DNA from: Denitratisoma oestradiolicum
Lineage (GTDB): Bacteria > Pseudomonadota > Gammaproteobacteria > Burkholderiales > Rhodocyclaceae
Length of the DNA stretch: 64,000 nt
Assembly: GCF_902813185.1 (NCBI RefSeq)
Contig: NZ_LR778301.1
Location: forward strand, 1,054,001-1,118,000
Reading direction: 5' to 3'
The notes under the pieces are model-generated. The model worked only from the letters and a program-made list of their open reading frames with translations. It ran no database searches and was not told the origin of the DNA. This document shows, in pieces, positions 34,184 to 43,423 of this stretch (the first letter of the stretch is position 1; the number at the start of each line of letters is the position of its first letter). The position numbers and the translations under genes are program-made.

Positions 34184-34259
34184 GCGGGAGTAGCTCAGTT
34201 GGTAGAGCGCAACCTTGCCAAGGTTGAGGTCGAGAGTTCGAGACTCTTCTCCCGCTCCA
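34184..34259 (+). tRNA. tRNA-Gly (GCC)
   Basis: A 76-nt cloverleaf with acceptor stem GCGGGAG/CTCCCGC, D-arm AGCTCAGTTGGTAGAGC, anticodon loop CTTGCCAAG (GCC), T-arm GAGAGTTCGAGACTC and an encoded CCA end. It is the first of two tRNA genes behind a consensus promoter. Confidence 0.95.
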
Positions 34260-34266
34260 GATTCCA

Positions 34267-34293
34267 GGGGGAAAGCACTGCTTTCCCCCTTTT
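34267..34293 (+). terminator. Terminator-like hairpin between tRNA genes
   Basis: A perfect 10-bp stem (GGGGGAAAGC/GCTTTCCCCC, loop ACT, 34267-34289) is followed by TTTT. In form it is an intrinsic terminator, yet it lies between tRNA-Gly and tRNA-Cys. It may act as a partial terminator or a processing hairpin. Confidence 0.7.
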
Positions 34294-34322
34294 AACTTAA
34301 GTGCCGCGGCAATCGCGGCAGC

Positions 34323-34396
34323 GGCGCGATGGCAGAGTGGTTATGCAGCGGCCTGCAAAGCCGTGTACCTCGGTTCGATTCCGGGTCGCGCCTCCA
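34323..34396 (+). tRNA. tRNA-Cys (GCA)
   Basis: A 74-nt cloverleaf with acceptor stem GGCGCGA/TCGCGCC, anticodon GCA in CCTGCAAAG, T-arm loop GGTTCGATTCC and encoded CCA. No separate promoter is visible in the 30 bp after the hairpin, so it probably depends on read-through from tRNA-Gly. The tRNA-Leu that often completes this operon is absent. Confidence 0.95.
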
Positions 34397-34465
34397 GAAT
34401 AACCCCGGACAATCCTCAAAAATTAAGTTTTGGTGCGCCTCCTTGGGGTCGGTCTGCTACGGGCA

Positions 34466-34654
34466 CTATCCCAGTTCCGGCACCAGAACGCCACGCCCCA
34501 TCCCCCGGTCCTCGCGCAAGTCCTGGAGTACGCGAGGGCCTTCGTCAAGACTGAAATACTGTGCATCGACATGAATGCGGTCGTGCCGAGCCAGTGCGAT
34601 GACCTCCTGCAATTCGGCCCGGGAGCCCCACAGGGGTGTGCACACCGAGCAGCC
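34466..34654 (-). pseudogene. C-terminal remnant of a zinc-type alcohol dehydrogenase
   Basis: Reading the minus strand, about 62 codons encode SVCTPLWGSRAELQEVIALARHDRIHVDAQYF, then SLDEGPRVLQDLREDRGMGRGVLVP. This is the characteristic end of a medium-chain dehydrogenase. No upstream catalytic or Rossmann domain exists; the sequence before it belongs to other material. It is therefore a deletion scar next to the tRNA pair, downstream of a Gly-rich secreted protein gene. Confidence 0.7.
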
Positions 34655-34700
34655 GAAGATCAGGCCCGGAATCCGGGCCTGATCAACAGAACGATTGGAC

Positions 34701-35579
34701 TCAGCGATGACGACCGAGTCCCAGACCCAGGCCGCCGCCGCCCCTGGCACCGCCGCCGATACCGAGGCCGAGGCCATCGCCGCCAGGGATCACGCGACCG
34801 GAGATTACGCCGCCGGAAATTGCGCCGCTGCCATGGATAGCCGCCGCGCCGCCCATGGAGGCGCCGAGGCTTCTGCCGCCTCCGGCATCACTGTTGGCAT
34901 CCGGGCGGGTGCTGGTCTTGGCCGTTTGGCCGCTGACGATCCTGCCACCGGCCGCGTTGACGATGGTCCCCGGTGATCCCAGCGGCGATACCGGGACGGC
35001 GCGCCCGCTGGGGCTGATGTCGAGGGTATGGGCGATCTGGCCCCAGCCCATGCCCTGGCTACGCAACTGAAGCACACCCGTACTCGTGGTGGCAGTGCCG
35101 TCGGCGTTGGTCAAGGTGCCGCCGATCAGGGCTGCCTTAAGTTGTTCCGGCGTGGGGTTGGTAATGCCCTGGGTGGACAGGGATTCGCGGGCATAGGTCA
35201 GTGCGTGCCGGACCTCACCCCAGCCCATGGGACCGGTGGGTGAAACGAAACTGACTTCGCTGCCCGTGCTGGTGCTGGTGGTTGTGCCCGTAGCGCTCCC
35301 CGCGGTGCCACTGCTTGCGCCCGTGTTACTGCTGTCGACCAGGGTCACGGCGCCGCCGCTGCGTAGGCCGCTCACCAGGCTTGCGGCGTTCTCCTGGGAA
35401 CCGGAGAAATTCGCGAACTCGCTGGTCAGTCGCTGGGACTCCTGTCCCTTGAGAGGGACCTGGGCCGATGTGGTCTGGCTGGCGTTGGTGGAAGCATTCC
35501 CGGCGACCTGTGCCGAGGCGGTTCCGAGCTGGAGGTAGGCGGCGCTGATCGCCAGGAATGTAAGTGTCGTGCGTTTCAT
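34701..35579 (-). CDS. Gly-rich secreted protein with MGWG motifs
   Basis: A 292-residue exported protein. The start MKRTTLTFLAISAAYLQLGTASAQ at 35579 gives a normal signal peptide and has AAGGAG upstream; the longer open frame adds unrelated residues. The mature protein is Ser/Thr-rich and contains two related blocks, GPMGWGEVRHALTYARESLSTQ and SQGMGWGQIAHTLDISPSG. It ends in a flexible Gly-rich tail (GLGLGIGGGARGGGGLGLGLG). No enzymatic motif is seen. It is the last gene of the five-gene envelope operon that begins at 37321, 16 bp after the DUF3568-like lipoprotein gene. A structural envelope or surface role is likely but unproven. Confidence 0.75.
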   Translation of the reverse strand: MKRTTLTFLAISAAYLQLGTASAQVAGNASTNASQTTSAQVPLKGQESQRLTSEFANFSGSQENAASLVSGLRSGGAVTLVDSSNTGASSGTAGSATGTTTSTSTGSEVSFVSPTGPMGWGEVRHALTYARESLSTQGITNPTPEQLKAALIGGTLTNADGTATTSTGVLQLRSQGMGWGQIAHTLDISPSGRAVPVSPLGSPGTIVNAAGGRIVSGQTAKTSTRPDANSDAGGGRSLGASMGGAAAIHGSGAISGGVISGRVIPGGDGLGLGIGGGARGGGGLGLGLGRHR

Positions 35580-35595
35580 GTTGATCTCCTTGGGG

Positions 35596-36015
35596 TCAGG
35601 AATTACCGAGAACTTTCTCGGTTTGCAGGATGATTTCCATGGCAGTAGCGCTGTCATAGAACATCCCCTCTTTCACCACCGAGCGCATTCTTGTGCTCAT
35701 CGCGCTCAGGGATTCGAGTTCGATCGTGATGTCGCGGTCCTTGGCGGTGGCGACGATGGTTTCCGTCGTTCCGCTTCTCCTGGCCGACAGGATCTTGAAG
35801 TTCATCCGGGTCATGGCGCCCATGACGCCGCTCTTCACATTGGCCGCGGGCAGGGTGAAAGTGCGGTAGGCGATGCCGTTCAAGGTGTGGGCGACGCTGG
35901 TGGCGGCGCCCACACCGAACATGGTGATGGCCATGGGTTCGCAGGCGGTGAGCAGCGTCAGGGCGGCTGCCGCAGCGAAGAGGCAGTGGCGCGATGGCGA
36001 AGGACGACGATTCAT
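35596..36015 (-). CDS. DUF3568-like lipoprotein
   Basis: A 139-residue lipoprotein: signal peptide followed by the lipobox LLTAC at about residue 25. The mature part (GIAYRTFTLPAANVKSGVMGAMTRMNFKILS ... IVATAKDRDITIELESLS) matches the DUF3568 pattern of small envelope lipoproteins of unknown role. Its ATG overlaps the stop of the upstream glycine-zipper gene by 4 bases (ATGA), so they are translationally coupled. It belongs to the operon preceded by the sigma-54 promoter at 37373. Confidence 0.82.
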   Translation of the reverse strand: MNRRPSPSRHCLFAAAAALTLLTACEPMAITMFGVGAATSVAHTLNGIAYRTFTLPAANVKSGVMGAMTRMNFKILSARRSGTTETIVATAKDRDITIELESLSAMSTRMRSVVKEGMFYDSATAMEIILQTEKVLGNS

Positions 36016-36551
36016 GACGCGCTCCGGTAGGGCACCACTTGCCCGCCCATTACCCTGACCTTGGCGCCGACGCCGAACTCGGGCTGGCTGTGGGTGCTGA
36101 AGGTGCGGACACTGCCGTCCTCCATGCGCACACGGGTCTGCCAGACCATATGGCGGTTCGAGTTTTTCTCGATCTCGTTACCGGCATAGGCGCCGGCGCC
36201 GCCGCCGATCAGGGTCATCGCCGTGCGGCCGTTGCCCCGACCCATGGTGTTGCCCAGCACGGCGCCGGCGATGCCGCCGATTACCGCGCCAGTGCCGGAA
36301 CCACTGCCTTTCACCGTGATGGCGCGGATCGACTCGGCCACGCCGCAATCGGCGCAAGGGGCTGCGGCCAGCTTCGCCGCGCTCTGGGCGGCCGGGGACG
36401 TTTCATTGATCCCGGCCAGGGCGCCGGGCAGATGGCCGGTCATGGTGGCGATACCGAGCAGGCTGAACAGGGTGACGCAGATCGCCGCGACGATCAGGGC
36501 CGGATAGAGCAGTTTTGGGGGGCTGCGTTTGAACAGGGAGGGGGTTTCCAT
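36012..36551 (-). CDS. Glycine-zipper 2TM domain protein
   Basis: A 179-residue protein with an N-terminal anchor (LLYPALIVAAICVTLFSLLGIATM). A glycine-zipper double helix follows at about residues 85-125 (GTGAVIGGIAGAVLGNTMGRGNGRTAMTLIGGGAGAYAGNEIE), then a beta-rich end (VWQTRVRMEDGSVRTF ... VRVMGGQVVPYR). This is the arrangement of SlyB/Rcp-type envelope proteins, which oligomerise in or near the outer membrane under stress. The CADCG pair could form a disulfide. It is the third gene of the operon. Confidence 0.85.
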   Translation of the reverse strand: METPSLFKRSPPKLLYPALIVAAICVTLFSLLGIATMTGHLPGALAGINETSPAAQSAAKLAAAPCADCGVAESIRAITVKGSGSGTGAVIGGIAGAVLGNTMGRGNGRTAMTLIGGGAGAYAGNEIEKNSNRHMVWQTRVRMEDGSVRTFSTHSQPEFGVGAKVRVMGGQVVPYRSAS

Positions 36552-36569
36552 GATGACTCTCCTTAAGGG

Positions 36570-37073
36570 TTAAGCGACTCGCCAGATGCCGTCCGCGGCG
36601 CGGCAGGCCTTGCCGCGCAAGGCCAGGCGCTGGCCATCGCGCAGGGACGATCCTTCAAAAAAGCGGCATTGCAGGCCGTTATGGTTTTCCCGGCGCAACG
36701 GAACGATGTCGTACTCGGCGCCGGAGCGGTAGTTGCGCCAGCGCACCGAGCGCCGCTCCGGCGCCGACTCCAGGGCGCGACCCAGACAGGCCCGATCCAC
36801 CGCATCCATCCCGGTGTCCGTGCTCCTGCCGAGATGGACGCCGATCGTGGCATCCCGCGTCGAGCCGACCTGGGAACCCAGGGCGGCGGTATCGCAACGG
36901 GTGGTGGCGACGCCATGGCGACGGAACCAGGGGCGGCGGTCGTCGTCCTGCCGATAGGGCATCTGGAAACCGCGCCAGTCCGTGCTGGCCGAATCCAGGA
37001 TCAACTCGGCCTGGGCCGGGGCCTGGAAAAGGCTGGTCAGTGCGAGGACAAGGAGCAGATGGCCTGTGTTCAT
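36570..37073 (-). CDS. Secreted protein with 17-kDa surface-antigen C-terminal domain
   Basis: A 167-residue exported protein (signal peptide MNTGHLLLVLALTSLFQAPAQA). The C-terminal domain has SVRWRNYRSGAEYDIVPLRRE followed by NGLQCRFFEGSSLRDGQRLALRGKACRAADGIWRVA. This is the beta-sandwich seen at the end of rickettsial-type 17-kDa surface antigens, usually fused to a glycine-zipper lipoprotein half. Here that half is encoded by the gene just upstream (37088-37321), 14 bp away. The frame is open to 37403, but this start gives the signal peptide. Confidence 0.75.
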   Translation of the reverse strand: MNTGHLLLVLALTSLFQAPAQAELILDSASTDWRGFQMPYRQDDDRRPWFRRHGVATTRCDTAALGSQVGSTRDATIGVHLGRSTDTGMDAVDRACLGRALESAPERRSVRWRNYRSGAEYDIVPLRRENHNGLQCRFFEGSSLRDGQRLALRGKACRAADGIWRVA

Positions 37074-37087
37074 GGCGGAGCCTTCTC

Positions 37088-37321
37088 TTACTTGCGCTCC
37101 AGCTCGCGGCCGATGCGATGACCGATGTAGCTGCCAGCGGCGGCCCCGGCGACGGTGCCGGTTCCGCTGCCGCCGGTGAGGCTCGAACCCACAATGCCGC
37201 CCACCACGGCGCCGGTGACCATGCCGATTTCCTGCTTGCTGGGGTTGGTGGAGCAGCCGGCCATGCCCAGGGTGGCAAGAAGGGCGCAGGTGGCGAGGAA
37301 GTTGGGGCGAGGGGTGTTCAT
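37088..37321 (-). CDS. Glycine-zipper 2TM lipoprotein
   Basis: A 77-residue lipoprotein: signal peptide and lipobox LGMAGC at about residue 23, then one glycine-zipper hairpin (IGMVTGAVVGGIVGSSLTGGSGTGTVAGAAAGSYIGHRIG). It corresponds to the N-terminal half of the 17-kDa surface antigen family. It is the first gene of a five-gene envelope operon. AGGAG precedes ATG, and a sigma-54 promoter lies about 50 bp upstream. It is expected at the outer membrane inner leaflet. Confidence 0.88.
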   Translation of the reverse strand: MNTPRPNFLATCALLATLGMAGCSTNPSKQEIGMVTGAVVGGIVGSSLTGGSGTGTVAGAAAGSYIGHRIGRELERK

Positions 37322-37372
37322 GTTTTTCTCCTGTAGGCGACGGCGCAGATACGGCCGTCCTGCCCATTCCGG

Positions 37373-37388
37373 GGCAATGCTTGTGCCA
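37373..37388 (-). promoter_or_regulatory. Sigma-54 (-24/-12) promoter of the envelope operon
   Basis: On the minus strand the sequence reads TGGCACAAGCATTGCC: TGGCAC and TTGC with the exact -24/-12 spacing of RpoN promoters. The start point would fall near 37362, giving a leader of about 40 nt before the first lipoprotein gene. The gene just upstream encodes GlrR, a sigma-54 activator. Confidence 0.85.
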
Positions 37389-37406
37389 GGAAGAAAAAAC
37401 CATTTG

Positions 37407-37419
37407 AATCAGCGTATTA
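37407..37419. promoter_or_regulatory. IHF-type binding site
   Basis: AATCAGCGTATTA fits the IHF consensus WATCARNNNNTTR at every fixed position. It lies between the sigma-54 promoter and the GlrR boxes, centred about 50 bp upstream of the predicted start point, where IHF normally bends DNA to bring the activator to RpoN polymerase. Confidence 0.6.
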
Positions 37420-37452
37420 ACAACTTATGGAAGGCGTGGCTCCGATTCATTC

Positions 37453-37470
37453 TGTCGCCGGTGGACGACA
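37453..37470. promoter_or_regulatory. GlrR (QseF) binding box 1
   Basis: TGTCGCCGGTGGACGACA fits TGTC-N10-GACA, the binding motif known for enterobacterial GlrR. It is centred about 100 bp upstream of the predicted sigma-54 start point, a normal enhancer distance. Confidence 0.7.
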
Positions 37471-37519
37471 GGGTGCCCTGCCCTCTGGGGCAAGTGGATG
37501 ATTGTTATGGGGAAACTGC

Positions 37520-37537
37520 TGTCGCCAGGAGGCGACG
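37520..37537. promoter_or_regulatory. GlrR (QseF) binding box 2, one mismatch
   Basis: TGTC-N10-GACG, one base off the GlrR consensus, lies 67 bp from box 1 and ends just beyond the glrR stop codon. The inner GTCGCC/GGCGAC also forms a 6-bp hairpin that may end glrR transcription. Confidence 0.5.
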
Positions 37538-37539
37538 AA

Positions 37540-38856
37540 TCATTTGAACAGGGCGGGGTCGAGCTGATGGCGTTGCAGCAGCTTGTAGAACTCGGTGCGG
37601 TTGCGCTTGGCCAGGCGGGCCGCCTGGCTTACGTTGCCACCGGTCATGCGCAGCAGCTTGCCCAGGTAATCCCGCTCGAAGCGAGCCCGGGCCTCTTCCA
37701 AGGAAGCCATGCCGTCGGCGCTGGCCAGGGCGTTCTGGATCAGAGTGGCGGGAATCAGTTTGCCGGTGCACAGGGCCACGGCCTGTTCCACCACGTTGTA
37801 GAGCTGGCGGATGTTGCCCGGCCAGGCGGCGCTGGTCAGCAACTCCAGGGCCTCGGGAGCGAATCCGCCCAGGGTCCTGCCGTATCTTTCGCCTATCCCC
37901 TTGAGGAAGTGGGTCGCCAGGAGCGGGATGTCGTCGCGTCTTTCATCAAGGCTGGGCAGGGCGAGGGTGACCACGTTGAGCCGATAGAACAGATCCTCGC
38001 GGAAGCGTCCGGCGCCGATTTCATCCTCCAGGCGGCGATGGGTGGCCGAGAGGATGCGCACGTCCACCGCCACGCTACGGGTCGAACCCACGGGGCGCAC
38101 CTGGCGTTCCTCCAGGACCCGCAGCAGCTTCACCTGCAAGGGCAGGGGCATGTCGCCGATCTCGTCCAGCAGCAGGGTGCCCCCTTCCGCTTCCTGGAAC
38201 AGGCCCCGGTGGTCGCGCACGGCGCCGGTGAAGGAACCTTTCAGATGGCCGAACAGTTCCGATTCCAGCAAGGGCTCGGGAATGGCGGCGCAGTTCACGG
38301 CCAGAAAGGGGCCGTCGCGGCGGGGGCTGGCGCGGTGGATGGCCTGGGCCAGCAGTTCCTTGCCCGTGCCGGACTCGCCCCGGATCAGCACACGGGCCTC
38401 CCCGGCAGCCACCAGACGGGCCTGGGCCAGCAGGGCTTCCATGGCCGGATTGCGGCTGATGATCTCGCCCTGCCAGTCGTCGTCGGCGCCGCTGACCTTC
38501 ACCGCTCGCGCCACCTCGGCCAGCAGGGCCTGGGGCTCGTAGGGTTTGGTCAGATAGCCGAAGAGACCGCGCCGGGTGGCCTCCACGGCATCCGGAATGG
38601 TGCCGTGGGCGGTGAGCATGATCACCGGCAGGGTCGGGTACTCGCGGTGAATGGCCTCGAACAGGGCCGTGCCGTCCATTCCCGGCATGCGCATGTCGGT
38701 GATCACCACCTGGGGGCGCTCCACCGCCAGCAGGGCCATCGCCCGTTCGCCGCTGTCGGCGGCGCTTACCGCGTAACCAGCGGCTTCGAGGCGGATGGTG
38801 AGCAGACGCAGCAAGTCCTTGTCGTCGTCCACCAGCAGAAGTCGGGCCGGGTTCAT
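37540..38856 (-). CDS. glrR: Sigma-54-dependent response regulator GlrR/QseF
   Basis: A 438-residue NtrC-type activator. It has a receiver domain with phospho-acceptor Asp54 (VVITDMRMPGMDG), then an AAA+ domain with GESGTGKE (Walker A), the sigma-54 contact loop GSFTGA, and GTLLLDEIGDM. The C-terminal Fis-type helix-turn-helix is GGNVSQAARLAKRNRTEFYKLL. It follows a kinase and a QseG-like lipoprotein gene, the exact order of the enterobacterial glrK-qseG-glrR system that senses envelope state. GlrR boxes and a sigma-54 promoter directly downstream suggest it activates the next operon. Its ATG overlaps the qseG stop (ATGA). Confidence 0.93.
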   Translation of the reverse strand: MNPARLLLVDDDKDLLRLLTIRLEAAGYAVSAADSGERAMALLAVERPQVVITDMRMPGMDGTALFEAIHREYPTLPVIMLTAHGTIPDAVEATRRGLFGYLTKPYEPQALLAEVARAVKVSGADDDWQGEIISRNPAMEALLAQARLVAAGEARVLIRGESGTGKELLAQAIHRASPRRDGPFLAVNCAAIPEPLLESELFGHLKGSFTGAVRDHRGLFQEAEGGTLLLDEIGDMPLPLQVKLLRVLEERQVRPVGSTRSVAVDVRILSATHRRLEDEIGAGRFREDLFYRLNVVTLALPSLDERRDDIPLLATHFLKGIGERYGRTLGGFAPEALELLTSAAWPGNIRQLYNVVEQAVALCTGKLIPATLIQNALASADGMASLEEARARFERDYLGKLLRMTGGNVSQAARLAKRNRTEFYKLLQRHQLDPALFK

Positions 38857-39407
38857 CGGCGTTTCTTGCTGACAGGTGGCGGGGGCGGCTGACTGCGTTC
38901 CAGCAGGTTGCGCTCGATGGCCTTCAGCGCATCGAGTTTCTGCTCCAGGTCGTCGGCCCGGCGCGATTCGTCGCGCAATGCATCCTCCAGGCGGCGACGC
39001 TCGGCCAGCTCGGCCTTGAGGGCTGCAATCAGTCCGTGCAGGGAGGAGTTCTGCTTCTGGGTCTCACGCTCCAGTTGTTCGAGCTGCTGCATGGCCCGGG
39101 CATGCTCCCGGGGGCCGGTAAGGGGAACGGCCATCACCATGGCCAGACGCAGACGCTGGAATTCGCTGCCATCCTTTTGCACGGCCTCGCGGACCTGTTC
39201 ACTCTCCCGGTTCCATTCGGCGCCGGAGAGGGAACGCACATAGGCGTGGTAGGCGATCAGGGAGTCCGTGGTGGTGAGAATGACGGCGCTGGAGGACTTG
39301 AGCCAATACTGGTTGCCGCTGCCGCGCAGGGTCACCGGCGAACAGGCGGCGAGGAACGCCGCCAGCAGCGGCAGGGCGAGATGGGCGGGACGGGACATGG
39401 ATCTCAT
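38853..39407 (-). CDS. qseG: QseG-like outer-membrane lipoprotein
   Basis: A 184-residue lipoprotein with lipobox FLAAC at about residue 22. The mature part is helical, with a coiled coil (RAMQQLEQLERETQKQNSSLHGLIAALKAELAERRRLEDAL) and a Pro-rich basic tail. Position between kinase and regulator genes, overlapping both by 4 bases, matches qseG, whose product interacts with the sensor kinase. Sequence similarity to enterobacterial QseG is weak by eye, so the symbol rests mainly on context. Confidence 0.7.
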   Translation of the reverse strand: MRSMSRPAHLALPLLAAFLAACSPVTLRGSGNQYWLKSSSAVILTTTDSLIAYHAYVRSLSGAEWNRESEQVREAVQKDGSEFQRLRLAMVMAVPLTGPREHARAMQQLEQLERETQKQNSSLHGLIAALKAELAERRRLEDALRDESRRADDLEQKLDALKAIERNLLERSQPPPPPVSKKRR

Positions 39408-40834
39408 TGTAACGGCAGCCGCACCTGGAAATGGGCGCCGGGGCCGGGCAGCAGGACGAGCTGCCCGCCGTGGGCCAGCACATGCTCGCGGCTGATGGAC
39501 AGCCCCAGGCCCGTGCCCTTGAGCGGCCCGGCGGCCGGCAGACGGCCCTGATAGAAGGGATCGAAGATATGGTCCCGGTCCTCCTCGGTGATGCCCGGTC
39601 CTTCGTCGGCCACGTCGATCAGGGCGGCATCGCCCTCGCGGCGGACGGTGAGGGTGATGCGGCCACCCGGCGGCGAATGCTTGACGGCATTGGAGAGCAG
39701 ATTGTCGATCACGGTGCGGATGCGCTCCCGGTCGGCATTGAGGGCGATCTCCGACAGTTCCGTGGCCACCTGCAACTGACGGGCGCTCCAGGCCAAGCGC
39801 TGCTTTTCCACCACCGTCCGCACCAGTTCGGCCAGGGGAAAGACCTGGCGGCGCAAGGCCGATTGCTTGAAATCGGCGGCGCTGTAATTGAGCAGGTCCT
39901 CGATCAGCCGGCGCAGGTGCAGGCTGTTGTCGGTGAGAATGCGCACCAGCTCCTGCTGTTGGGGATTCAGGGGACCGACGGCTTCCTCCGCCAGCAGGTC
40001 CGAACCCTCCCGCAGGGCGGTAAGCGGCGTCTTGAGCTCGTGGGAAATCTGGCGCAGGAAGCGGCTTTTCTGTTCTTCCAGTTCCACCAGGCGCAGGCGC
40101 AGCCGGTCCAGTTGCTCCCCCAGGGATTGCAGATCGCGGGGGCCTTCCACTTCGATCCGGCGTTCGAAGCGGCCAGCCCAGAGCCCCCCGATGGCGGCTT
40201 CCATTTGGGCGATGGGATGGGAGAGCAGGCGGGTGAATCCGATCATCAGGAAAGCGGCCACGGGGAGCAGGGCGGCCAGTTGCAGCATCATCATCCGTTC
40301 CGCGTCGGCGGCCAGTTCGCGCAGGTCGGCGATCTCCCGGTCGATGGCGTCGTTGTTGTGATGGAGCATTGACTGAGCGGTCGCCGACAGGGCGGCGAAG
40401 CGCTCGGCGACCTGGCTGTCATCAACCTTGTGACGTCGGTCGAGAGTCATCAGGAAGCTGAAAAGATCGGCTTCGTGGCGTCGTAATTCGCTTAGCTCCT
40501 GCTGCTGCGGTTTGCTCAGCGGCAGGGTCGACAGGCGGCTTGCGGTCTCGCCCAGATGTCGATGCAGCGCACCGTAACGTTCCTTCAGGGCCGGATCATT
40601 TAGCACCAGGTATTGCCGGACGGCACGCTCCTGGGAAGACAGGGCCTCGATCAGGGCGCGGCTGGCCTGGCTTACCTGGGAGGCTTGATACACCGCTTGC
40701 TGGCTTTGGCTGGACAGGCGCCGGATGGAAACCCCGTTGTTGATCAGTCCGAGCACCAGGGGCAGCGCCACCAGACCGAAGCCGATGGCGAGAAGTTGCA
40801 GGAAGGAACGAGGATAGAGAGCGCTTAGCTTCAT
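39404..40834 (-). CDS. glrK: Sensor histidine kinase GlrK/QseE
   Basis: A 476-residue inner-membrane kinase. Two membrane helices (about 13-31 and 182-202) enclose a helical periplasmic sensor. A HAMP-like linker follows, then the phospho-acceptor His265 in RQISHELKTPLTAL and the ATPase motifs NLLSNAVKHSPPGG (N box), DVADEGPGI (G1) and GTGLGLSI (G2). It would phosphorylate the GlrR encoded two genes downstream. In enterobacteria the homologous pair controls the glmY small RNA and rpoE; the local target here appears to be the adjacent envelope operon. Confidence 0.9.
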   Translation of the reverse strand: MKLSALYPRSFLQLLAIGFGLVALPLVLGLINNGVSIRRLSSQSQQAVYQASQVSQASRALIEALSSQERAVRQYLVLNDPALKERYGALHRHLGETASRLSTLPLSKPQQQELSELRRHEADLFSFLMTLDRRHKVDDSQVAERFAALSATAQSMLHHNNDAIDREIADLRELAADAERMMMLQLAALLPVAAFLMIGFTRLLSHPIAQMEAAIGGLWAGRFERRIEVEGPRDLQSLGEQLDRLRLRLVELEEQKSRFLRQISHELKTPLTALREGSDLLAEEAVGPLNPQQQELVRILTDNSLHLRRLIEDLLNYSAADFKQSALRRQVFPLAELVRTVVEKQRLAWSARQLQVATELSEIALNADRERIRTVIDNLLSNAVKHSPPGGRITLTVRREGDAALIDVADEGPGITEEDRDHIFDPFYQGRLPAAGPLKGTGLGLSISREHVLAHGGQLVLLPGPGAHFQVRLPLQ

Positions 40835-40941: not shown

Positions 40942-41187
40942 TCAGAGCTGTTTGTGGGTGCCGTCGCAAAGCGGCGCGTGGCCGCTGTGCTTGCAGGCGC
41001 AGAAATACACCGTGTCCGACTTTTCGGCCACGTATTCCACGGGCGTGAATGCGCTGCCCTTGTGGCTGCCGTCGCAGAAAGGCTGGTTCTTGCTCTGGCC
41101 GCAGGCGCACCACCAGTAGCTCTTGCCCGCTTCGACATCCACGGCCATGGGGGCCTTCTGGACGATGTGGGGATTCTTGTCCGACAT
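40942..41187 (-). CDS. CDGSH iron-sulfur domain protein
   Basis: An 81-residue protein with two CDGSH-type cluster motifs, WCACGQSKNQPFCDGSHKG (about 27-45) and FCACKHSGHAPLCDGTHK (about 62-79). Each supplies three Cys and one His for a 2Fe-2S cluster, so this is a monomeric two-cluster (miner2-like) protein. It probably transfers electrons or clusters. It is the last gene of the marR-cytochrome b561-yceI-yceI operon. Confidence 0.93.
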   Translation of the reverse strand: MSDKNPHIVQKAPMAVDVEAGKSYWWCACGQSKNQPFCDGSHKGSAFTPVEYVAEKSDTVYFCACKHSGHAPLCDGTHKQL

Positions 41188-41214
41188 TGCTTGTTCCTTT
41201 CGAGGGAGAACCGC

Positions 41215-41781
41215 TTATTCCTTGATGGCTTCGACGGCGATGTCGATGGTCACTTCGTCACCGACATAGGGGGCGTTCTTGCCCATGTTGAAGTCGCTAC
41301 GCTTGACGGTGGTCCTGGCGTTGGCGCCGATGGCGTCCTTCTTGACCATGGGGTGGGGCATGGCCTGGAAGGAGGTGACGGTGAGAGTCACCGGCTTGGT
41401 GATGCCCTTCAGGGTCAAGTTTCCTTCAACCTTGGCGGGTTTGTCGCCTTCGAAAACAACCTTGGTGGACTTGAAGGTGGCGGTGGGGTGCTTGGCCGTG
41501 TCGAGGTAGTCCTCGCCCTGGATGTGCTCGTTGAACAGCGCGGAGCCCGTGCTGACGGATTTGGTATCGATCACGATGTCCACCGAGCCGGCTCTGGCGG
41601 CCTTGTCCATGACGACTTTGCCGGAGGTTTTATCGAAGCGGCTGAGCTGAACGGAGTATCCGAGATGGTTGTAGGAAAAGCGCGGGAAGCTGTGGTTGGG
41701 GTCGAGGTTGTAGGTTTCCGGAGCAGCGAAGGCAGCGCCGGAAAGAGCGGCGGCGAGGGCCAGGACGGTCAGATTTTTCAT
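41215..41781 (-). CDS. YceI family periplasmic protein
   Basis: A 188-residue exported protein: signal peptide ending ALSGAAFA-A, then the YceI lipocalin-like fold with YNLDPNHSFPRFSYNHLGYSVQLSRFDKTSGKVVMD and the central HPTATFKSTKV block. YceI proteins bind polyprenyl-type lipids such as isoprenoid quinones in a beta-barrel pocket. A second YceI gene precedes it, 28 bp upstream, and a cytochrome b561 gene before that, a combination seen in periplasmic quinone or electron-transfer operons. Confidence 0.9.
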   Translation of the reverse strand: MKNLTVLALAAALSGAAFAAPETYNLDPNHSFPRFSYNHLGYSVQLSRFDKTSGKVVMDKAARAGSVDIVIDTKSVSTGSALFNEHIQGEDYLDTAKHPTATFKSTKVVFEGDKPAKVEGNLTLKGITKPVTLTVTSFQAMPHPMVKKDAIGANARTTVKRSDFNMGKNAPYVGDEVTIDIAVEAIKE

Positions 41782-41809
41782 GGAAGTATCTCCTTGGAGG
41801 TTGTGGGTC

Positions 41810-42376
41810 TTACTTGCGTGGTGTGTTGCTTGCAGCGGTGATGCGGAACTTGATCAGGACTTCATTGCCGACGGTATCGAAGTCGGCCCAGGGTCCTTCG
41901 CCGATGGCGTAGTCGGCGCGCTTGAGGCTGAAGCCGCCATCGAAGGCGGCAGTGTTGCCCTCGGGCTTGTAGGTCACGGCAGTGGTGACTTCCCGCGCCT
42001 TGCCCTTGATGGTCAGGGTGCCGCCGACCTCATAGCGGTTGTTGCCCAGGCTGCGCACCCGGCCGGAGACGAAGCTGGCGCTGGGGAATCCCTTGACGTT
42101 GAACCACTGCTTGCCCACGGCCTCCTCATCGGCCTCCTTCGATCCGGTGTCGATGCTGGCCATCTCGATGTTGAGGCTGACCTTGGCGGTTTCCGGCTTG
42201 GCGGGGTTGAAGGCCAGGGTGCTGTTGAATTTCCTGAAGCGGCCATCCACCGGCACGTTCATCTGCTTGAAGACGAAGGTGATCTGGCTTTTTTCGGGCT
42301 GTACCGAGGTGTACTCGACTGCCCCGGCTCCGGGCAGCAGGGCGGTGAGCATGAAACCGGCTAAAAACTTTTTCAC
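41810..42376 (-). CDS. YceI family periplasmic protein
   Basis: A 188-residue paralogue of the next gene with a GTG start, signal peptide (KKFLAGFMLTALLPGAGA) and the YceI fold: VQPEKSQITFVFKQMNVPVDGRFRKFNSTLAFNP, ASFVSGRVRSLGNNRYEVGGTLTIKGKAREV. Compared with its neighbour it is divergent in the lipid-pocket region, which suggests a different ligand. It lies 22 bp after the cytochrome b561 gene. Confidence 0.9.
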   Translation of the reverse strand: MKKFLAGFMLTALLPGAGAVEYTSVQPEKSQITFVFKQMNVPVDGRFRKFNSTLAFNPAKPETAKVSLNIEMASIDTGSKEADEEAVGKQWFNVKGFPSASFVSGRVRSLGNNRYEVGGTLTIKGKAREVTTAVTYKPEGNTAAFDGGFSLKRADYAIGEGPWADFDTVGNEVLIKFRITAASNTPRK

Positions 42377-42398
42377 TTTCGCGGACTCCTGGGGACGG

Positions 42399-42959
42399 TC
42401 AACGGGAACTCAGCATGCGCCGCAGCACATCGTCCCGGTCGATGAAGTGATGCTTCAGGGCGGCGCCGACATGGCCGATCACCAGCCCCAGAAGCAGAAA
42501 GTTGAGGGTCTGGTGCAGCAGCACCAGTTGATCCCCGAGGGGTGGATTCTTGGCCAGCAGGTCGGGAATGGGCAGCACCCCGAACAGCACCACCGGGAAA
42601 CCCTTGGCGGAACTCATCAGCCAGCCGCTGATGGGCACGGCGAACATCAACAGGTAGAGCAGCCAGTGGGTGGCTTCCGCCAGTTGGCGCAGCCGAAGGG
42701 GCATGGTTTCCGGCAAGGCCGGCGGCCTGTGGCCCAGGCGCCAGGCCAGCCGCGCCAGCACCAGCAGGAAGATGCAGACGCCGGTCCACTTGTGCCAGGA
42801 ATAGACCTTCAGCTTCCAGGGGGAGAGGGGCAGGCCCTGCATGTACAGCCCCACCGCGAAGGTGCAGGCGATGGCCAGGGCGATCAGCCAGTGCAGGCGA
42901 ATCGCGGTGGCGGTGTAGCGGGCCGGGGCGAGACCGGATGGGGCAGGATCGGCATTCAT
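42399..42959 (-). CDS. Cytochrome b561
   Basis: A 186-residue di-heme membrane protein with four helices. Candidate heme-ligand His residues are in IRLHWLIALAIACTFAVGL (helix 1), KVYSWHKWTGVCIFLLVLARLAWR (helix 2), ATHWLLYLLMFAVPISGWLM (helix 3) and LHQTLNFLLLGLVIGHVGAALKHHFIDRDDVLRRM (helix 4). It would move electrons between quinol and periplasmic acceptors. Its ATG overlaps the marR stop (ATGA). The frame open to 43145 lies inside marR and is not used. Confidence 0.9.
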   Translation of the reverse strand: MNADPAPSGLAPARYTATAIRLHWLIALAIACTFAVGLYMQGLPLSPWKLKVYSWHKWTGVCIFLLVLARLAWRLGHRPPALPETMPLRLRQLAEATHWLLYLLMFAVPISGWLMSSAKGFPVVLFGVLPIPDLLAKNPPLGDQLVLLHQTLNFLLLGLVIGHVGAALKHHFIDRDDVLRRMLSSR

Positions 42960-43423
42960 GACGTTTCCCCTTCTCCTACCTCCAAGGAGGCGCGGAAGGA
43001 CTTTTTCAGTTGGGCAAGCTGGCGGCGCAGGGTCGCCATCTGGGCATCGGAAAAGCCGGTGAATATCGTGCCCATGTGTTCCAGATGGGCCGGGAAAATG
43101 CGCTCGAACAGCTTCTGCCCCGAGCGGGTGAGCTGGATGACCCAACTGCGGCCATCAGTGCTGGAAGTCTGCCGAACCACCAGCCCCCGGGCCTCCAGCC
43201 GATCCAGCACACCGGTGAGGGTGCCCTTGGTCATCAGGGTCTTCTGCCCCAGTTCCTTGCAGCTCATGCCCTCGGTGTTGCCCAGGGTGGCGATGATGTC
43301 GAACTGGGAAGGCGTCAGCCCCAAGCTGCGGATATGGCCGGCCGAAAAGGCCTCGAAGGCCTGAAAGCATTCGGCCAGCTCGCGGACCAGGGGCAGGAAG
43401 GATTTCTGGGGCATGGTTTTCAC
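42956..43423 (-). CDS. MarR family transcriptional regulator
   Basis: A 155-residue winged-helix regulator (GTG start at 43423, or ATG at 43414). The helix-turn-helix block reads MSCKELGQKTLMTKGTLTGVLDRLEARGLVVRQTSSTDGRSWVIQLT, with the usual D-x-R wing. It is the first gene of the cytochrome b561-YceI-CDGSH operon. Two palindromic boxes overlap its own promoter, which points to autorepression relieved by a small ligand, as is common in MarR proteins. Confidence 0.92.
   Translation of the reverse strand: MKTMPQKSFLPLVRELAECFQAFEAFSAGHIRSLGLTPSQFDIIATLGNTEGMSCKELGQKTLMTKGTLTGVLDRLEARGLVVRQTSSTDGRSWVIQLTRSGQKLFERIFPAHLEHMGTIFTGFSDAQMATLRRQLAQLKKSFRASLEVGEGETS

Follow-up and report, generated by a model that had tools for sequence, protein, structure and literature searches.

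A predicted GlrR/IHF-dependent sigma-54 promoter between glrR and a five-gene envelope operon in Denitratisoma oestradiolicum, and the recurrence of the promoter module at orthologous loci

Introduction

Directly behind glrR, and in the same direction, the stretch of Denitratisoma oestradiolicum DNA analysed here (64,000 nucleotides, hereafter the window) carries five closely spaced genes for putative envelope proteins, which raises the question of whether the regulator acts on the genes next to it and whether such an arrangement is confined to this locus. The sections of the published account that deal with QseF (PMC6075780) name glmY and rpoE as its targets, give TGTN12ACA as its site, report that IHF assists and describe the system for Enterobacteriaceae. 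GlrR/QseF is known from enterobacteria via GlmY and rpoE, and its original role is poorly defined. GlrR/GlrK are also listed for Acidithiobacillia in the relevant passage of PMC12194929. According to the original prediction for the window, a complete set of GlrR boxes, IHF site and sigma-54 promoter stands after glrR and drives the genes behind it.

Results

Regulator genes

The three regulator genes were assigned as follows.

39404..40834, minus strand: glrK (qseE), sensor histidine kinase, by orthology and domains
38853..39407, minus strand: qseG-like lipoprotein gene between glrK and glrR, with a lipobox-like N-terminus by eye
37540..38856, minus strand: glrR (qseF), sigma-54 response regulator, by orthology

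The glrK product was 34% identical over its full length to E. coli GlrK (E 3e-63), with the Pfam domains HisKA and HATPase_c above the cut-off and HAMP below it. The qseG-like product matched E. coli QseG weakly (24% identity, E 0.017) and had no Pfam family above the cut-off. The glrR product and E. coli GlrR agreed at 244 of 439 aligned positions (56% identity over the full length, E 2e-171), and the former contained REC, AAA+ sigma-54 and HTH domains (Pfam; HTH_8 21.4 bits, just under the cut-off of 22). Its best NCBIfam model was GlrR, with 588 bits against a curated cut-off of 763, a value presumably set on enterobacteria. The C-terminal helix RNRTEFYKLL, which we take to be the recognition helix, was identical in the window and in E. 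coli, and the pattern RNRTxFY(K/R) was kept in 71 of 72 GlrR orthologues with more than 53% identity, the exception being L048. The genome of the window also carries rpoN, and a search of it with GlrR as query gave no fewer than 28 matches at E up to 0.001, 28 of the 68 candidates having been scored. Upstream of glrK, genes for a CDGSH protein, two adjoining YceI proteins, a cytochrome b561 and a MarR regulator were observed at 40942-43423.

Promoter elements behind glrR

Between the end of glrR (37540) and the first of the five genes, four elements were found.

37520..37537, minus strand: GlrR box 1, CGTCGCCTCCTGGCGACA, CGTC-N10-GACA, one mismatch to TGTC-N10-GACA (C at the first base)
37453..37470, minus strand: GlrR box 2, TGTCGTCCACCGGCGACA, TGTC-N10-GACA, perfect
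37407..37419, plus strand: IHF site, WATCARNNNNTTR, perfect, 31 bp upstream of the -24 element
37373..37388, minus strand: sigma-54 -24/-12 promoter, TGGCACAAGCATTGCC, core TGGCAC-N5-TTGC perfect (37374-37388)

Box 1 starts 2 bp past the glrR stop codon; box 2 lies 67 bp from box 1 and 64 bp from the -24 element. The set of elements that had been claimed was present, with one mismatch in box 1 and none in box 2, the IHF site or the core, and the claimed order before the five-gene set (37321 to 34701) also held: box 1, box 2, IHF site, core and closely spaced genes. The sequence features expected of a GlrR/IHF sigma-54 promoter, namely boxes of the TGTN12ACA type upstream of the core, an IHF site in between, a -24/-12 core and an rpoN gene, were all found. 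A transcript would start near 37362, as judged from the position of the core; the start codon of gene 1 lies about 41 nt past this predicted start and has a good ribosome-binding site, CAGGAGA.

Taken singly, the elements occurred at chance level in the 64-kb window (boxes with at most one mismatch, 21 found vs 18.7 expected; cores with at most two mismatches, 32 vs 37.5; IHF sites, 2 vs 1.5), and the case therefore rests on their ordered combination and on conservation. Of the 17 perfect cores in the genome, none but that of the window has a perfect box within 300 bp upstream, and none but that of the window has a pair of boxes with one mismatch or fewer each in this interval; one other, L157, had a single box with one mismatch. 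Three genome-wide scans for an exact box with TGGCAC gave three matches besides the window site (backward control, one match per scan), and an exact two-box scan of the genome gave none, box 1 of the window itself having one mismatch. These three were taken as chance: L148 had no core even with two mismatches allowed, and L220 and L221 each had two mismatches in the -12 half and lacked an IHF site, the former lying inside an open frame and the latter 97 bp before an ORF.

Five-gene set

The genes encode products of 77, 167, 179, 139 and 292 aa, with intergenic gaps of 14, 18, -4 and 16 bp.

37088..37321, minus strand: gene 1, glycine-zipper lipoprotein of 77 aa, OsmB-like (Gly-zipper_Omp, E 2.7e-8)
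36570..37073, minus strand: gene 2, secreted 17kDa_Anti_2 protein of 167 aa (PF16998, E 5.2e-9)
36012..36551, minus strand: gene 3, SlyB-like protein of 179 aa (PF05433, E 3.3e-9; SlyB 7ojf_A, E 1.9e-7, residues 57-166)
35596..36015, minus strand: gene 4, DUF3568 lipoprotein of 139 aa (PF12092, E 5.2e-6)
34701..35579, minus strand: gene 5, Gly/Ser-rich secreted protein of 292 aa, assigned to the operon by its 16-bp spacing only
34658..34684, minus strand: 12-bp hairpin after gene 5 (fold z-score -2.9 for 34600-34705)

Gene 1 matched the OsmB model below the cut-off of that model (E 1.6e-7). The gene 3 product comprises an N-terminal hydrophobic segment, a CxxCG motif and a SlyB-like glycine zipper with the C-terminal part; in alignment A1 (12 sequences) C66, C69 and G70 were invariant. 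The glycine-zipper 2TM domain and the C-terminal part are those of SlyB, but no lipobox cysteine was seen by eye in the N-terminal hydrophobic segment of the 12 sequences, and the protein is therefore referred to as SlyB-like and not as SlyB. For gene 5, no Pfam family was found at E 0.1 and no NCBIfam family. The hairpin behind it possibly marks the end of the transcript; it has no T run and was not picked up by the terminator scan. Past the operon end, tRNA-Gly and tRNA-Cys genes lie on the opposite strand (34184-34396).

The target had been described as a local set of glycine-zipper, 17-kDa-antigen, DUF3568-like and Gly-rich proteins. Recurrence in relatives bears this out for the glycine-zipper lipoprotein (gene 1 counterparts in L111 and L113, and in L168 below the cut-off), for SlyB-like gene 3 and for the DUF3568-like gene 4 (look-alikes by eye in L113 and L114), but gene 2 had one weak counterpart, in L111 of G001 and below the cut-off, and no counterpart of gene 5 was seen by eye among the listed genes of the relatives.

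Conservation at orthologous loci

Conservation was assessed at 72 orthologous loci, including the window, with GlrR identity above 53% and no pair above 90% (blastp), and at 12 more distant NtrC-like control loci (at most 53% identity). Within 400 bp behind glrR, a box followed by a core (no more than one mismatch in either) was found at 35 of the 72 orthologous loci vs 0.08 expected from dinucleotide shuffles. Control windows contained none, whether inside glrR (0/72) or 1, 1.5 and 2.5 kb downstream (0/67, 0/67 and 0/62, respectively), and the more distant loci also contained none (0/12); two of these 12, L140 and L143, carry the GlrR helix, so they may represent diverged GlrR without the module.

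A module scan of both strands of 878 kb from the 72 loci, under a rule somewhat unlike that of the 400-bp test, gave 56 modules, with at least one in 53 loci. Thirty-six of them, in 36 loci, lay within 570 bp behind glrR. Upstream, eight loci had one or two modules in the same direction, which is the glmY position, and ten had one pointing away; for 18 of these 19 modules a glrK-like gene starts 130-1,028 bp further on. The module of L117 lies 2.9 kb upstream of glrR, with no glrK detected there, and one further module, in L032, lies elsewhere. The strict-rule module was absent from 19 of the 72 loci, including L112 of the window's own genus. Among these 19, L066, L068 and L077 had box pairs whose core carries two mismatches, L050 had a box pair at a contig end, and the flanks of L039, L048 and L059 were truncated. 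Genome G033 has two GlrR copies, on contigs 145 and 123 (L113 and L117); the L113 module precedes glycine-zipper/SlyB-like genes and the L117 module a BON gene.

Sites away from glrR

Two boxes with TGGCAC, the -12 half not being required, were searched for in 300 genomes of the order with the reversed pattern as control. The scan gave 23 sites in 21 genomes, of which G046 and G047 were already represented in the 72-locus set, and none for the reversed pattern; the window site, whose distal box starts with C, escapes the pattern and is not among the 23. The -12 half was nevertheless present in 22 of the 23, their cores deviating from the consensus at one position at most. GlrR is encoded in each of the 21 genomes, in G253 as two pieces. 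The fetched flank contained glrR at 11 sites and glrK at 2; nine of the other ten are not on the contig that carries the best GlrR match of the genome, and the remaining one, in G253, lacks the -12 half and lies about 3 Mb away from GlrR.

A strict single-box pattern was applied to 61 relatives: of the 30 that have a close GlrR, 9 gave a match, as did 1 of the 31 that lack one. The exception, G026, has at L229 a pair of boxes spaced by 20 bp and a sigma-54 core free of mismatches, with no IHF site, ahead of a gene resembling a multi-haem cytochrome gene by eye; consequently, the boxes are not exclusive to GlrR, and another activator may use similar ones. The match in G004 lies away from glrR of that genome: at L230, on contig 89 and not on the contig of glrR, a box is combined with a core and an IHF site (offset 32), both perfect, ahead of a 65-aa ORF, which makes it a possible trans target.

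In G002, a member of the window's genus, no module was found behind glrR (contig C17). On contig C21 of the same genome, two perfect boxes at a spacing of 65 bp and a degenerate core (two mismatches) at 64 bp precede a gene 3 homologue (65% identity) and a gene for a lipoprotein resembling that of gene 1. Lack of conservation in relatives had been set beforehand as a refuting outcome, and the prediction withstood this test: order, spacing and IHF position recur, and in G002 the gene 1 and gene 3 homologues have the boxes in front of them off the contig of glrR.

IHF position, spacing and phasing

Geometry was compared in 74 promoters, namely the 56 modules of the 72 loci and 18 further ones, the latter being the 23 double-box matches minus L196 (no core), L198, L203, L206 and L210 (repeats or near-repeats) and L214 (near a contig end), plus L168. 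An IHF site with at most one mismatch, which had played no part in choosing the modules, lay 29-35 bp upstream of the -24 element in one orientation in 51 of the 74 vs about 1 expected from the remainder of the same sequences. Box pairs were 63-68 bp apart in 57 of 70 cases. The box nearest to the -24 element lay at 51-54, 62-69, 73-76, 83-89 or 92-96 bp in 70 of the 74 modules; these clusters are about one helical turn apart, a phasing that is descriptive only and is given no p-value because part of the set, the double-box matches, was selected by spacing and the genomes are related and not independent. The inner bases of 140 boxes, unused in selection, lean to TGTCGCC-N4-GGCGACA.

Genes behind the modules in other lineages

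The genes behind the modules (payloads) were called by Pfam, NCBIfam or alignment, the automatic choice of the gene being rough.

Glycine-zipper lipoprotein and/or SlyB-like: window, L111, L113, L114, L116, L119, L125, L127, L131, L168, L215, L216
BON: L031, L034, L035, L037, L038, L054, L055, L117, L132, L135, L199, L204, L205
EF-hand: L040, L057, L061, L065, L120; together with BON in L031, L204
OpgG: L036, L053, L069
OpgH: L033, L041, L042
Bactofilin: after glrR in L129; divergent from glrK in L037, L045, L058, L134, L135, L136, L138; away from glrR in L197, L213
fn3-repeat: L032, L044
GlmY RNA: E. coli, L064, L067
No Pfam family in the payload protein: L043, L115, L118, L121, L133, L200, L211, L214
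No convincing payload gene: L124, L126, L128, L130, L137, L139, L202, L208, L209, L212, L217, L218

Among the proteins without a Pfam family, those of L115, L118, L121 and L133 resemble the N-terminal segment of gene 3 by eye, and CxxCG is visible in the printed part of the last three. The ORFs behind the L052 module were not accepted as payload, and no ORF was shown behind that of L070. A protein gene starts 45-115 bp past the -24 element in 23 or more of the 37 modules listed. Rfam placed GlmY a short way behind the module in L064 and in L067 and found nothing but tRNAs at gathering score in the window. In the Kushneria locus L056 (about 4.3-4.9 kb), two overlapping GlrR/sigma-54 modules lie 511-591 bp before glrK, and the stretch ahead of glrK shows no obvious protein gene and gave no match to Rfam; these modules may possibly serve an unrecognised small RNA in the glmY position. 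With regard to the target being local, the module does stand before an envelope operon in the window, but this locus is not the only one with such an arrangement, since modules precede other envelope genes in other lineages.

Discussion

The sites and their order, their recurrence and spacing, the second site before homologous genes in G002 and the orthology of GlrR point to a GlrR-activated, IHF-assisted sigma-54 promoter that very probably drives the envelope operon beside its own regulator. GlrK, probably together with the QseG-like lipoprotein, would sense envelope trouble and phosphorylate GlrR, which would then bind boxes 1 and 2. IHF would bend the DNA about 31 bp upstream of the -24 element, and the GlrR ATPase would open the RNA polymerase-sigma-54 complex at 37373-37388. 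The predicted transcript from about 37362 would carry all five genes, whose products probably stabilise the outer membrane.

It is improbable that another activator of the NtrC family binds the boxes and that glrR is a mere neighbour. The many GlrR-query matches in the genome would provide such activators, and G026 has similar boxes and a core with no close GlrR; however, GlrR was found in every genome with a match in the double-box scan, the strict single-box pattern favoured relatives with a close GlrR, the modules sit at the operon of glrK and glrR, and boxes of this kind occur at E. coli glmY, where binding of QseF is reported in the pertinent part of PMC6075780. An explanation of the inverted repeats as terminator or repeat hairpins after glrR, the operon being transcribed by read-through or from a sigma-70 promoter, is very improbable. 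Box 1 and box 2 are indeed able to fold as RNA hairpins and the intergenic gap is short, but there is neither a T run nor a terminator-like site at the boxes, the sole sigma-70-like site found in 34300-37700 falls inside the operon, the boxes keep a spacing and phasing relative to the sigma-54 core, and in G002 they and glrR are on different contigs.

Finally, the promoter might mainly make a GlmY-like small RNA, the genes behind it being secondary, as a similar promoter in E. coli makes GlmY and the L056 modules stand before glrK with no evident protein gene between. This appears extremely improbable for the window: Rfam, which recognises GlmY in E. coli, L064 and L067, finds only tRNAs there, gene 1 with its good ribosome-binding site begins shortly past the predicted transcript start, and protein genes follow at a similar short distance in most of the modules listed. 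The reading of GlrR as the activator of the envelope operon is thus preferred.

The promoter is of a type already known; what is of interest is the conserved cassette, behind which payloads are exchanged. We consider it reasonably likely that the root function of GlrK-GlrR is to switch on envelope maintenance, with a single cassette (two boxes about 66 bp apart, then an IHF site and a sigma-54 core) kept at a flank of its own operon and with the payload exchanged between lineages (SlyB-like/glycine-zipper, BON, bactofilin, OpgG/OpgH, EF-hand), and that the enterobacterial GlmY would then be one late, RNA-type payload. The cassettes at the flanks point to direct protein targets in other proteobacteria, namely SlyB-like, BON, bactofilin and glucan-synthesis proteins, all with envelope functions; they make the ancestral role of GlrK-GlrR testable and hint at a role outside gut bacteria. 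They also place genes without an assigned function (gene 3 with CxxCG, DUF3568, 17kDa_Anti_2) in a likely stress regulon. The envelope operon fits the view, argued in the section of PMC3162934 concerned, that sigma-54 controls the bacterial exterior in general. The prediction had known of no description of such a target in betaproteobacteria; none was found for these GlrR targets, nor anything on GlrR with betaproteobacteria or with bactofilin, in the accessible parts of open-licence papers, a body of literature whose silence is not proof of absence.

Comparison with known systems

Gene 3 shares with SlyB (7ojf) the glycine zipper and the C-terminal part (residues 57-166, E 1.9e-7), but has by eye an N-terminal hydrophobic segment and CxxCG where SlyB has a lipobox. 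With the sigma-54 promoter of E. coli rpoE, the window promoter would share the activator (QseF) and a cell-envelope output but not the target, a likeness that comes from the published description (PMC6075780, in the part on QseF) and not from the sequence.

The closest counterpart is E. coli glmY, which has three perfect boxes, the second and third of them separated by 63 bp; its IHF site lies 31 bp before the -24 element, and its core has one mismatch. The claim that the enterobacterial regulator acts through the same box and sigma-54 agrees with the sequence of glmY, and glmY and rpoE are named as targets in the same part of PMC6075780. Both promoters combine TGTC-N10-GACA boxes, an IHF site 31 bp before the -24 element and a sigma-54 core, the activator predicted for the window is orthologous to that of E. 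coli, and both promoters stand beside glrK and glrR, with qseG between these genes in E. coli and a qseG-like gene in the window. They differ in that the IHF site of the window has the opposite orientation, and in that the window has two boxes, the nearest 64 bp from the -24 element, whereas glmY has three, the nearest at 89 bp. Moreover, the predicted target in the window is a protein operon downstream of glrR, whereas glmY is a small RNA gene upstream of glrK.
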